NCBI GenBank assembly: GCA_040752895.1
Contig: JBFMHN010000007.1
Coordinates: forward strand, 1-38,226
Source of the DNA: Pseudomonadota bacterium
GTDB lineage: Bacteria > Pseudomonadota > Alphaproteobacteria > GCA-2746255
DNA length: 38,226 nucleotides
Reading direction: 5' to 3'
Shown here one piece after another: positions 1 through 38,226 of the stretch; within the stretch, counting starts at the first letter, position 1; each line of letters starts with the position of its first letter. The position numbers and the translations under genes are program-made. The notes under the pieces were generated by a model, which was not told the origin of the DNA, made no database searches, and saw only the letters and a program-made list of their open reading frames with translations.

Positions 1-127
1 CTTGGCGACGCTCGATCTCGGCTGGGATGCCTATACGGCGATGGACGGCACTACCATCGCCGCCGATCCCAACGGCCTGATCGATGGCCTCAGCGTCGAT
101 ACGGTCGGGTTCCAGACGCTCGAAGGC
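1..127. repeat. Direct terminal repeat, left copy (circularity mark)
   Basis: These 127 bases are identical to 38100-38226. Both copies lie inside one reading frame, and joining them restores an uninterrupted 165-residue protein. The simplest reading is a circular or circularly permuted genome cut by the assembler, not a biological terminal repeat. 127 is a common largest k-mer size, which supports the assembly explanation. Confidence 0.95.
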
Positions 128-15335: not shown

Positions 15336-15421
15336 AACGCCGCTGGCGGCTAATCTCATACTATGCCCTGGCTGTGGTCGCATGGGCGGTAACGTTGGTG
15401 CTGATCGAGTTGCTTAAGTAG
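15332..15421 (+). CDS. Tiny single-span membrane peptide (29 residues)
   Basis: This 29-residue peptide starts at ATG 15332, coupled to the preceding stop (ATGA). It has a basic start (MKRRWRLI) and then one hydrophobic span (SYYALAVVAWAVTLVLIELL), consistent with an inner-membrane topology. It may be a second holin-like peptide or an antiholin. Its last 8 bases overlap the tail of the convergent gene at 15414-15758. Confidence 0.55.
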   Translation: MKRRWRLISYYALAVVAWAVTLVLIELLK

Positions 15422-15758
15422 GCGGCGCGCCGCTTGGTCGGTCATGTTGATTGGCCTCATCTTGAAAGGTTGAGCCGCCGCCGTAGCCGCCGCCGTAGCC
15501 GGAGCCATCGCCGTAGCCGTCGCCGTAGCCGGAGCCGTCGCCGTAGCCGGAGCCGTAGCCGGAGCCGTAGCCGTCGCCGTAGCCGTAGCCGGCGCCGTAG
15601 CCGGAGCCGTAGCCGCCGCCGTAGCCGCCGCCGTAGCCGGAGCCATCGCCGTAGCCGTCGCCGTAGCCGTCGGCGTCGCCGTAGCCGTCGGCGTCGCCGG
15701 AGCCGGAGCCGTAGCCGTAGCCGTCGCCGGAGCCGGAGCCGGAGCCCTTATCCGACAT
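15414..15758 (-). CDS. Gly/Tyr/Asp/Ser low-complexity repeat protein
   Basis: This 114-residue protein is composed over residues 5-95 almost only of Gly, Tyr, Asp and Ser in GYG, GSG and GDG units, then ends in a normal tail (STFQDEANQHDRPSGAPPT). ATG 15758 has a good GGGAGG site inside the upstream gene and overlaps it by 11 bases, so the frame looks genuine. The antisense Ser/Arg-rich ORF is a shadow. Such sequences are flexible and can self-associate; the function is unknown. It sits at the distal end of a leftward three-gene unit. Confidence 0.72.
   Translation of the reverse strand: MSDKGSGSGSGDGYGYGSGSGDADGYGDADGYGDGYGDGSGYGGGYGGGYGSGYGAGYGYGDGYGSGYGSGYGDGSGYGDGYGDGSGYGGGYGGGSTFQDEANQHDRPSGAPPT
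15476..15748. repeat. Degenerate trinucleotide/hexanucleotide repeat (GCCGTA/GCCGGA on + strand)
   Basis: About 270 bases consist of near-perfect in-frame repeats of gccgta, gccgga and gccgtc. They encode the Gly/Tyr/Asp/Ser tract on the minus strand. The period of 3 or 6 makes the array prone to slippage that keeps the reading frame. Confidence 0.85.
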
Positions 15759-17328: not shown

Positions 17329-18519
17329 TTGCGCGCGGCGGTCCTATTCTCTGGCATCGGTGGCTGGGAGATCGCCTGCGAGATGAACGGCGTCGAAGTC
17401 GCGTGGGCATGCGAGTGGGACGAGTGGAAGCGCGCCCGCTACCTGGAGCGGTGGCCCGATGCGGTGCTGATGGGGGACGTGGGAAAGATCGATGGCCGAC
17501 AGATGCTCAGAGACCATGGACCTATTGACCTCCTGCTCGGAAGCCCGCCCTGCACCGACATCAGCGCAGCCAACGTCAACGGCTGCGGCATCGACGGAGC
17601 AGAGAGCCGCTACTACCTCGAGGCCATCCGACTTGCACGGGAGACCGGCGCTCGTTGGGTTGGATTTGAGAACTCACCTCGGCTCCGCACTCGCGGAGCT
17701 GACCGGGTGCTCGACCTCCTGGGAGATGCAGGCTACGCCCGCTGGCCATGCGTGGTGGAAGCTGAGGATGCCGGCGCCCCGCACGAGAGGGGACGCTCCT
17801 TTGTTCTCGGATGCCGACGAGACGCGATTGGGTGCCAAACTGATCGGGACACCGCTAGCGTCGGAGCGGTGCGGCAGCAAACAGCAGCGACTTGGCACGC
17901 GGATGCCGGACCCATCGATGCTTGGTCTCGCGATGAGAGTACCGACACCATCGGCAGTGGACTACGGCAGCAACCGGGGCGGGGCGGCGGGACGCACGGG
18001 GCTGGAGCGACCGAGCCTCAAGCGCATGCTGACGACGACCTCGACCGACAACCTGACCGCGCCGAGCATGGCCAAGTGGGCGGGAGCACGGGAATTGATG
18101 GCGCTGCTGGCGAGTGCGGCGGAGAAGCTGCCGACGTGCACCGCGAGCAACGGCGGCATCGAGCCGGACGGGACAACGGGACGCAAGCTCTCGACAGTGT
18201 TGGGCCGACGCCTTGCCACTCCGCCAATCGCGCGCGGTCGGAGTGGCAAGGCGTCGGAGGAAACGCTCTCGAAAAACTCTCGCCCGCTCAACGAGCAGCT
18301 TTGTGCCCTTGGGATCACGGAGGCGACGGCCTTGCTAGCTATCTATCTATGGCTGATGGCCTGGCCTCTCGACTACGCGGACACGGCCTATCCGAGCGCG
18401 CCGTCAAAGCCGAACTCGCGCGGTGGCGGTCGGCGCTCGGCGACGCGCTCGTGATCCCGGTGGTGTGGGCGGTGGTTCGGGCGATCGTTAGGACGGATCA
18501 ACAGATGGGAAAACAATAG
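17329..18519 (+). CDS. DNA (cytosine-5) methyltransferase
   Basis: This 396-residue protein starts with TTG at 17329 after a strong GAGGAGG site. C5-methyltransferase motifs: FSGIGG at 7-12 (AdoMet binding), GSPPC at 71-75 with catalytic Cys75 (followed by Thr, where PCQ is usual), FENSPR at 113-118 (ENV motif) and HERGRSFVLG at 152-161 (QxRxR motif). The C-terminus has ADGLASRLRGHG and ALGDALVIPVVW at 369-380 (motif X). The stretch from about 162 to 320 is low in family likeness in this frame, while the +1 frame over the same bases shows typical methyltransferase recognition-region motifs (see 17768-18454). It probably protects phage DNA from restriction or alters host regulation. Confidence 0.85.
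   Translation: MRAAVLFSGIGGWEIACEMNGVEVAWACEWDEWKRARYLERWPDAVLMGDVGKIDGRQMLRDHGPIDLLLGSPPCTDISAANVNGCGIDGAESRYYLEAIRLARETGARWVGFENSPRLRTRGADRVLDLLGDAGYARWPCVVEAEDAGAPHERGRSFVLGCRRDAIGCQTDRDTASVGAVRQQTAATWHADAGPIDAWSRDESTDTIGSGLRQQPGRGGGTHGAGATEPQAHADDDLDRQPDRAEHGQVGGSTGIDGAAGECGGEAADVHREQRRHRAGRDNGTQALDSVGPTPCHSANRARSEWQGVGGNALEKLSPAQRAALCPWDHGGDGLASYLSMADGLASRLRGHGLSERAVKAELARWRSALGDALVIPVVWAVVRAIVRTDQQMGKQ
17768..18454 (+). CDS. Overlapping +1-frame ORF with methyltransferase-family motifs
   Basis: In the +1 frame inside the methyltransferase gene, ATG 17768 (GGTGGAAG lies 6 bases upstream) opens 228 codons. The frame shows family-like sequence known from variable regions of phage C5 methyltransferases: VPTPSAVDYGSNRGGAAGR, LPTCTASNGG, RLATPPIARGRSGKASEETL with SKNSRPLNEQ after it, and LWLMAWPLDY. 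By eye, third-position G/C is higher here than in frame 1 over 17,900-18,300. Either this is a true overlapping gene, or the methyltransferase is read frame 1, then 2, then 1 after two compensating indels. The frame stays open upstream to ATG 17492. Confidence 0.5.
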   Translation: MPAPRTRGDAPLFSDADETRLGAKLIGTPLASERCGSKQQRLGTRMPDPSMLGLAMRVPTPSAVDYGSNRGGAAGRTGLERPSLKRMLTTTSTDNLTAPSMAKWAGARELMALLASAAEKLPTCTASNGGIEPDGTTGRKLSTVLGRRLATPPIARGRSGKASEETLSKNSRPLNEQLCALGITEATALLAIYLWLMAWPLDYADTAYPSAPSKPNSRGGGRRSATRS

Positions 18520-19511: not shown

Positions 19512-19868
19512 CTACTTTCTTTCGTAGCGACCTGTCGCCCAATTGTACTTGCCCTCCGGTCGTCGAAACCCGCGCGGACGCTTGATGCCGGCATGCCGCT
19601 CGGCGACGCGCTTGCCCTTGGCATTTTCTCTCACGTCGTCGCGGGTCTTGGCCTTGTGGCATTTGGTATGCGCCGGCATGACGTTGCTCGGGTCATCAGC
19701 GCCGCCGACACTCCGGCGAACGACGTGCTCGGCCTCCCAGCTATCCTTGCCTGACCAGATCGGCCCCTGGCAGATGTGGCAGATCAGATAGGCGCGCCCA
19801 TGTGCGTCGTAACGCACATGGGCATAGTAGCAGTCGTGCCGTACCTTGTACGATGACGGGCGGCTCAC
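19512..19868 (-). CDS. HNH endonuclease
   Basis: This 118-residue protein has an HNH fold: CHIC at 30-33, WEAEHVVRRSVGGADDPSNVM at 44-64 (H48 as general base, N62) and PAHTKCHKAK at 65-74 (H67, C70, H71). The compact size fits phage HNH proteins. Here it lies distal in a leftward early operon rather than beside terminase, so it may be a stand-alone nuclease or homing-type element. Its start overlaps the RTX gene stop by 4 bases. Confidence 0.85.
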   Translation of the reverse strand: MSRPSSYKVRHDCYYAHVRYDAHGRAYLICHICQGPIWSGKDSWEAEHVVRRSVGGADDPSNVMPAHTKCHKAKTRDDVRENAKGKRVAERHAGIKRPRGFRRPEGKYNWATGRYERK

Positions 19869-20482
19869 AGAATGAAATCCTCACTCGTCAGTGTGTAGGC
19901 CCCGGCCAGCACGATCGACCCGGCCGGCGTCTCGACCGTGGTCCAGTCGCCGGCCGAGGTTATATTGAGCTGATCGAACGTGAAGCCGTGGCCGGTGAAC
20001 GACAGCCTGTCGGCCCCCTGCTCGAAATCAGCGATCAGATCGCCATCGACATACGAAAAGTGGAACGTGTCGGCTCCAATTCCGCCGATCAGGTAGTCTG
20101 CGCCCCAGCCGCCATCCAAGTAGTCGTTGTCGCTGTCGCCCATCATGATGTCGTCACCGCCCTGGCCGAGCAGGGTATCATTGCCCGTATTGCCTCGCAG
20201 GAAGTCGCCACGGGTGCCACCGTCCGGCGTCGCCGCGTCGCCCGGCCCGCCGTCGATGTAGTCGTGGCCATCGCCGCCAGCGAGGTAATCGACGCCATGT
20301 TGTCCGAAGATGCGGTCGTTGCCGGCATTGCCGCGCACAGCGTCCTCACCAGCACCGGCTCGGATCGTGTCATTACCGAACCCACCACGCAGGTAGTCGT
20401 CACCACTGCTCCCAATGATTGTATCGTTTCCAGGCGTCCCAACAATCAGATCACCCTTCTTTTTTGCTCGCAAGATTGCCAT
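19865..20482 (-). CDS. RTX-type calcium-binding repeat protein
   Basis: This 205-residue protein contains about ten glycine-rich nonapeptides of the GGxGxDxU type (GTPGNDTIIGSSGDDYLRGG, then GNAGNDRIFG, GDGHDYIDG, GNTGNDTLLG and so on) over residues 12-138. A capping module follows, ADTFHFSYVDGDLIADFEQGADRLSF, as in RTX/serralysin C-termini. The repeats would fold as a calcium-loaded parallel beta-roll. RTX proteins are normally secreted by type I systems; the C-terminal ~60 residues could act as such a signal or as a structural cap. It is unusual inside a replication operon and may be acquired from a host. Confidence 0.85.
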   Translation of the reverse strand: MAILRAKKKGDLIVGTPGNDTIIGSSGDDYLRGGFGNDTIRAGAGEDAVRGNAGNDRIFGQHGVDYLAGGDGHDYIDGGPGDAATPDGGTRGDFLRGNTGNDTLLGQGGDDIMMGDSDNDYLDGGWGADYLIGGIGADTFHFSYVDGDLIADFEQGADRLSFTGHGFTFDQLNITSAGDWTTVETPAGSIVLAGAYTLTSEDFIL

Positions 20483-37869: not shown

Positions 37870-38226
37870 ATGGCTGTCACCACCCAGTATTCGACCGAGT
37901 ACGATTACGCGTTCATCGACGACCCGCAGACCACGCTCAAGACCACCGAGCAGCATGGTCGCCTGCGGATCGCGTTCTTCACCTGCACCCAGTCGGGCGC
38001 GGGTGACGCAACGAGCTCCGTCGCGTTGTGCAAGCTGCCGGCGGGGCGCGTGCGTCTCTTGGGCTCGCTGTCCAGGGCCTACGTCAACTGGACCACGGCC
38101 TTGGCGACGCTCGATCTCGGCTGGGATGCCTATACGGCGATGGACGGCACTACCATCGCCGCCGATCCCAACGGCCTGATCGATGGCCTCAGCGTCGATA
38201 CGGTCGGGTTCCAGACGCTCGAAGGC
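37870..38226 (+). CDS. Presumed head decoration/completion protein, N-terminal part (continues at base 128)
   Basis: ATG 37870, after TAGGAGGGCC, starts a protein MAVTTQYSTEYDYAFIDDPQ that runs off the end and continues at 128-268; the total is 165 residues. It is 15 bases after the capsid stop. The middle (LCKLPAGRVRLLGSLSRAYV) looks like a beta-sandwich. The position immediately after the capsid gene suggests a decoration or head completion protein. Confidence 0.75.
   Translation, partial: MAVTTQYSTEYDYAFIDDPQTTLKTTEQHGRLRIAFFTCTQSGAGDATSSVALCKLPAGRVRLLGSLSRAYVNWTTALATLDLGWDAYTAMDGTTIAADPNGLIDGLSVDTVGFQTLEG
38100..38226. repeat. Direct terminal repeat, right copy
   Basis: These bases are identical to 1-127. 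Removing one copy gives a circular unit of 38,099 bp. Confidence 0.95.

Follow-up and report, generated by a model that had tools for sequence, protein, structure and literature searches.

A probable two-gene C5 DNA methyltransferase with a nested +1-frame subunit in a podovirus-like phage genome

Analysis of a 38,226-base contig (the window, meaning the whole stretch of DNA analysed) revealed a cytosine methyltransferase locus where two genes share the same bases in different frames. Each gene is genuine and subject to selection, and the constraint switches from the frame-1 gene (alpha) to the +1-frame gene (beta) and back to alpha. The locus probably represents a nested two-gene C5 DNA methyltransferase, whose alpha and beta products would assemble into an active enzyme with one or several target sites, and whose beta would be translated from an internal start. 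It is best read, from its motifs and homologies, as a split methyltransferase of the M.EcoHK31I kind whose beta would bear an array of shuffled 'PTPxAxD' recognition cassettes. Judging from the homologous loci recovered, a great many other phages have the double-coding layout, for the most part without annotation.

Phage genome and layout of the locus

The contig carries a 127-base exact direct terminal repeat (1-127 and 38100-38226), and its gene content includes tail, portal, capsid and internal virion genes, together with a weak terminase match; it is a complete circularised podovirus-like phage genome that sits among the contigs of a 2.29 Mb bacterial assembly. A minus-strand ORF (19865-20482) encodes nonapeptide repeats of the RTX-like GGxGNDxx type, which small podoviruses do not usually have. 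The stretch 15414-15758 is likely repetitive non-coding or fast-evolving, because tandem-repeat ORFs occur there in several frames (GYGSGYGDGSGYGDG on the minus strand, RRRSRSR on the plus strand). Since antisense ORFs of 900-1278 aa are present in the same GC-rich window, the openness of a frame is weak evidence by itself, and it was therefore tested statistically. The features of the locus are as follows:

17329..18519, plus strand: alpha, C5-cytosine DNA methyltransferase large domain (PF00145, phrog_363; TTG start, 396 aa)
17347..17364, plus strand: alpha motif I, FSGIGG (translation)
17478..17491, plus strand: weak, putative Shine-Dalgarno-like stretch (gtgggaaagatcg) ahead of the beta ATG (sequence)
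17492..18454, plus strand: beta, nested +1-frame gene, predicted TRD/motif IX half (ORF of 320 aa; profile score; proposed ATG 17492)
17539..17553, plus strand: alpha motif IV, GSPPC, with the catalytic Cys (translation)
17645..17799, plus strand: predicted beta N-terminal folded segment (helix and hairpin), overprinting alpha motifs VI-VIII (AlphaFold2; profile)
17668..17676, plus strand: alpha motif VI, ENS (translation)
17782..17799, plus strand: alpha motif VIII, HERGRS (translation)
17798..18345, plus strand: predicted beta recognition cassette region (VPTPSAVDYGSNRGGAAGR..., LPTCTASNGG..., LATPPIARGRSGKASEE...) (profile; profile-profile match; cassette analysis)
18346..18380, plus strand: beta YLWLMAWPLDYAD element, a divergent version of the family WMMGYPPGWL (alignment)
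18430..18492, plus strand: alpha motif X, SALGDALVIPVVWAVVRAIVR (family form FGDAVVPQIPEAIGRAI) (translations; wobble at alpha position 3 in relatives)

Alpha consists of motifs I-VIII, followed by a low-complexity passenger stretch and then motif X. It was matched by PF00145 over residues 4-166 (Pfam, E=3.9e-25) and by phrog_363 over residues 1-393. Motifs I, IV (PPC), VI (ENV/ENS) and VIII of C5 methyltransferases, plus a C-terminal motif X, are all found in alpha, whereas the TRD and motif IX, expected between VIII and X, were not found in it and are predicted, by homology, in beta. GDALVIP in the alpha frame corresponds to motif X, divergent from GDAVVPQ; the alpha tail scored 24.6 bits against the alpha profile, a score reached by 4 of 1000 beta-silent recodings. 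The frame-1 motifs named in the sequence-only reading, GDALVIP included, and its frame-2 strings (VPTPSAVDYGSNRGGAAGR, RSGKASEETL, NSRPLNEQ and LWLMAWPLDY) are present in two open frames. That reading placed the +1-frame motifs at about 17,800-18,400, where they do occur, but the conserved portion starts further upstream, at about 17645, within an ORF open from 17471. Since the window copy departs from the family consensus at WLMAWPLDY and GDALVIP, it may be altered or inactive.

Beta as the probable recognition half

In mycobacteriophages Alma, LoneWolf and Eaglepride, alpha ends directly past motif VIII, and the +1 gene carries PTP cassettes, WMMGxPxGW and GNGV (motif X), while other mycobacteriophages have all methyltransferase parts in one chain. 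Because mycobacteriophages thus either fuse the halves or truncate alpha past motif VIII, the two genes complement each other. A single chain, L111, was matched by PF00145 over 1-347, and its fold resembles M.HhaI over the whole enzyme (E=3.2e-15). With hhalign, the window-type beta aligned to the recognition half of single-chain methyltransferases (probability 97.2, E=3.6e-11) and, profile to profile, to the ctgrD-type beta (probability 98.8, E=4e-17). On the strength of the split and single mycobacteriophage chains and of the alignment to the recognition half, beta is predicted to be the small-domain half and alpha (motifs I-VIII and X) the large domain. The cut between them falls where C5 methyltransferases are known to divide into their two domains (described in PMC3404938).

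By a simple pattern that set the boundaries, 130 betas were divided into 409 cassette units with a median length of about 34 residues, starting with PTPxAxD-like sequence. Cassette families were taken from strict clustering (single-linkage clustering merged families), and 30 of the 32 families with at least three members occur beside differing neighbours, which therefore indicates module shuffling. Several interchangeable tandem units are thus found in the recognition region, as in a multispecific TRD array. Overall, sequence comparison indicates that beta shares ancestry with the recognition half of single-chain enzymes, and that its cassettes shuffle. If the comparison with Bacillus phage enzymes, which have recognition domains in tandem (PMC8936443), holds, each cassette may read one target.

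In a set of mycobacteriophage single-chain methyltransferases (L103, L105, L107-L109, L112-L131 and L138), the first cassettes lie in the +1 frame, which stops about where the 0-frame PTP cassettes begin. Single-base indels seem to shift mycobacteriophage cassettes between frames (L106 versus L109).

Structure prediction with AlphaFold2 gave a poor overall model of the window beta (pTM 0.36, cassettes with pLDDT <50), in which the overprinted N-terminal 50 residues, mostly at pLDDT 82-95, form a helix and hairpin; two rows from database records were omitted from the alignment used for this fold. In the alignment of the window 1-2 composite, beta fragments were apparently placed on the catalytic domain. 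A search of solved structures with the beta profile returned no methyltransferase and one probable low-complexity chance match, and the window beta alone had no Pfam match. The lack of a Pfam family for beta would suit a genuine overprinted gene with some other role, such as binding host restriction enzymes or regulating alpha. Such a role is unlikely, given that the recognition region and W-x-M-G element of beta have their homologues in the C-terminal half of single-chain C5 methyltransferases, and that alpha is truncated past motif VIII where beta also bears motif X.

Start of beta and selection on both frames

In the diverse set of homologous loci described below, only 5 beta-frame stops occur within the 100 codons ahead of the end of motif VIII, against 138 expected, and more than 120 codons upstream of it their number agrees with expectation (128 against 105). 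In the Rhizobium group, beta-frame stops are found up to alpha codon 44 and none beyond, with an ATG at codons 46-48. The first ATG past the last stop lies at a median alpha codon of 45 and 48 in two unrelated groups, and is preceded by a Shine-Dalgarno-like sequence in 50 and 42% of cases, compared with 5 and 10% at other ATGs. Over codons 101-152, beta shows an identity of.669 (synonymous null.374), and over codons 3-44, ahead of the start, one of.418 (null.379). Owing to this stop-avoidance boundary and the conserved ATG in relatives, ATG 17492 is the likely start of the window beta; the Shine-Dalgarno-like stretch ahead of it (17478..17491) contains no AGGA, GGAG or GAGG. ATG 17768, proposed earlier, is probably wrong, as it would remove the conserved N-terminal part.

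Programmed frameshifting, also put forward in the sequence-only reading, would involve a +1 shift past motif VIII, perhaps with a return ahead of motif X, yielding a 1-2 or 1-2-1 single chain with the tails as by-products. The composite does show the canonical motif order, some mycobacteriophages hold the same parts in one frame, and the window contains a strong hairpin (18205-18257). Nevertheless, this explanation is improbable: beta is stop-free and conserved about 100 codons ahead of any useful shift point, so that constraint on the second frame is not confined to the region downstream of a shift site, and the recurrent ATG at alpha codon 45-48, with its Shine-Dalgarno enrichment, favours an independent nested gene. 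In addition, alpha stays stop-free across the recognition region (0 and 4 stops against 277 and 282 expected in the two sets of loci), which would be needless if ribosomes shifted, and no slippery site was recognised.

The hairpin, a perfect 19-bp inverted repeat with a 15-nt loop and a folding z-score of -8.06, is the strongest in the window and sits inside the recognition overlap. No similar hairpin was found in the 130 other homologous loci scanned, and its candidacy as a frameshift stimulator was rejected for want of any relative carrying it.

The closest annotated relatives are Rhizobium phages RHph_X2_25 and RHph_N2 (alpha identity 45-48%, about 45% in the catalytic part), whose +1 frame is likewise open and carries LPTPTATSYGSNRGGAAGRVGPVRPSL ... 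WMMGYPPGWL. An IMG/VR scan with the Rhizobium-type catalytic domain yielded 77 loci, and in about 71 of the 73 usable Rhizobium-phage-type loci neither frame is interrupted; the beta stop precedes that of alpha by a few to tens of codons, and about 10-20 stops are usual in the third frame. A scan with the podovirus ctgrD200 beta matched at least 600 stretches, of which 589 were confirmed and 80 kept, and every one of the 80 has the catalytic domain immediately ahead of a beta in the +1 frame. The same layout, with a stop-rich third frame, is seen in AT-richer elements, namely Paenibacillus phage Lily, a Leptospira plasmid and an Acinetobacter phage. Peptide-pattern scans found no viral relative with the window alpha and only two with the window beta; a genome-contig scan with the window alpha gave one weak match, and a beta-profile search of 289 host-class genomes three weak, partial matches. 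As to annotation, alpha alone is recorded in the Rhizobium phages and ctgrD200, and beta alone in Salmonella phage W5_chr3. In the latter (L227:1213-2142), the annotated gene ('Mte8-like') is beta, and the co-located catalytic alpha frame is unannotated. In L059 and L064, the exceptions among the usable IMG/VR loci, alpha and beta exchange frames mid-gene through one indel, a swap that may reflect sequencing error or decay.

Selection was assessed in 131 distinct homologous loci, 64 of the Rhizobium-phage type and 67 further, more diverse ones (41-69% GC). Shuffling of alpha-synonymous codons predicts 202 beta stops in the former and 121 in the latter (323 in all), and none was observed; the reciprocal, beta-synonymous shuffling accounts for the alpha expectations given above (about 560). 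The third frame of the 67 further loci has 535 stops. These nulls ignore shared ancestry, an effect that the upstream control region indicates to be small. In the window itself, frame 2 was broken in 99.7% of trials in which frame 1 was shuffled synonymously, and frame 1 in 99.3% of those in which frame 2 was. Against a beta profile built from relatives only, without the window sequence, the window frame 2 scored 88.7 bits, compared with a maximum of 44.2 bits for 1000 synonymous recodings of frame 1. Both parts of beta exceed their controls, namely the segment over motifs VI-VIII (55.4 bits; maximum 39.3 in 1000 recodings) and the rest, the cassette region (42.4 bits; maximum 24.4).

Substitution patterns trace the constraint along the locus. 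In the Rhizobium-type set, the mismatch rates at alpha codon positions 1/2/3 are.168/.126/.473 for the N-terminal portion,.198/.109/.271 across motif VIII,.419/.211/.147 for the recognition region and, past the beta stop,.300/.161/.584. The fast position thus moves from the alpha third to the beta third (the alpha first) over the recognition region and back to the alpha third, and the same alpha-beta-alpha switch was repeated in the independent, more diverse set. Since the alpha first position is the most variable even in alpha-guided alignments (.252/.131/.115 in the cassette region of the Rhizobium-type set), what alpha encodes over the cassettes is best regarded as a linker that is tolerated.

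The true overprinting suggested at the outset is thereby borne out, both frames being conserved and stop-free in the 131 loci. Homologues aligning in frame 1 alone, with frame-2 residues unconserved, were looked for, and the opposite was found. A pair of compensating indels, the second possibility raised earlier, or an assembly error, either of which would put the recognition region out of frame, is hardly credible: single-base frame swaps do exist in a few relatives (L059, L064), but unrelated phages of 41-69% GC share the +1 arrangement, which recurs in 80/80 loci recovered with an unrelated beta query as well as in the Rhizobium-phage-type loci, and both frames are under selection. Equally negligible is frame 2 as a passive by-product of the alpha amino-acid sequence and GC-rich codon usage, since, even if long spurious ORFs are common in the window and parts of beta (tail SATPSSRKS) mirror the conserved motif X, 0/1000 synonymous alpha recodings reproduce frame 2, the layout holds at 41% GC and in the AT-richer Leptospira, Paenibacillus and Acinetobacter elements, and the wobble position moves to that of beta.

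Proposed enzyme and its relation to known systems

The two genes of the M.EcoHK31I system overlap, the small one being read in a different frame from the large. The larger subunit of this enzyme (YGGCCR) has motifs I-VIII and X, and the smaller polypeptide motif IX (PMC3404938), the same distribution as proposed here for alpha and, by homology to single-chain enzymes, for beta. In contrast to the window, M.EcoHK31I belongs to one bacterial restriction-modification system and its predicted TRD was assigned to the large subunit, whereas here the small subunit would bear a variable cassette array, and the enzymes are orphan phage enzymes found in hundreds of viral contigs. In M.AquI, a C5 methyltransferase with alpha and beta subunits, the split lies within the variable region (PMC3404938), an arrangement that the mycobacteriophage pairs Alma 83/82 and LoneWolf 85/84 resemble; unlike M.AquI, where motifs IX and X are in beta, the window and its relatives read motif X in the alpha frame and have beta nested inside. 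The C5 methyltransferases of Bacillus phages SPR, phi3T, rho11 and H2 have tandem, modular, swappable recognition domains (PMC8936443), but they are single chains in one frame, while the cassettes described here lie in a second, +1 gene.

The two halves are known separately as families: phrog_363 matches the window alpha and phrog_1008 the beta of relatives (L151, 8.7e-28), both named 'DNA methyltransferase' and listed apart, with no statement of two frames at one locus. The only explicit nested annotation found in GenBank is LILY_63 of Paenibacillus phage Lily, recorded as 'g62 internal gene' and lying in +1 relative to LILY_62, the cytosine methyltransferase; it has the same layout, and the record claims no function or generality. 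No description of the nested layout in phages was found in the open-licence papers searched.

In the proposed nested two-gene enzyme, alpha would supply the large domain for AdoMet binding and catalysis (motifs I-VIII), and its passenger stretch, a silent reading of beta, would form a stop-free linker ahead of motif X. Beta, presumably translated from its own start inside alpha (ATG 17492 in the window), would supply the small DNA-recognition domain, comprising the N-terminal helix and hairpin, then the string of PTPxAxD cassettes, with the W-x-M-G-x-P-x-G-W element predicted to adjoin motif IX. The resulting alpha-beta heterodimer would methylate cytosines at one or several target sites, one cassette perhaps corresponding to one specificity, and methylation presumably protects the phage DNA against host restriction. 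The wider generalisation, that this is a very common phage C5 methyltransferase family whose specificity is a shuffled cassette array in a +1 overprinted gene, forming a two-subunit multispecific enzyme in which each exchange satisfies both frames, appears to us evenly balanced between true and false.

If the nested reading is correct, an overlap of about 160-330 codons, maintained in phages whose hosts differ widely, encodes two domains of one enzyme. It would then rank among the dual-coding genes that are most widespread in phages; as a rule, only one of its frames is annotated. It would also explain the apparent absence of a recognition domain in such methyltransferases and show where their specificities lie, and it would provide a natural system for the evolution of swappable modules in two frames simultaneously.
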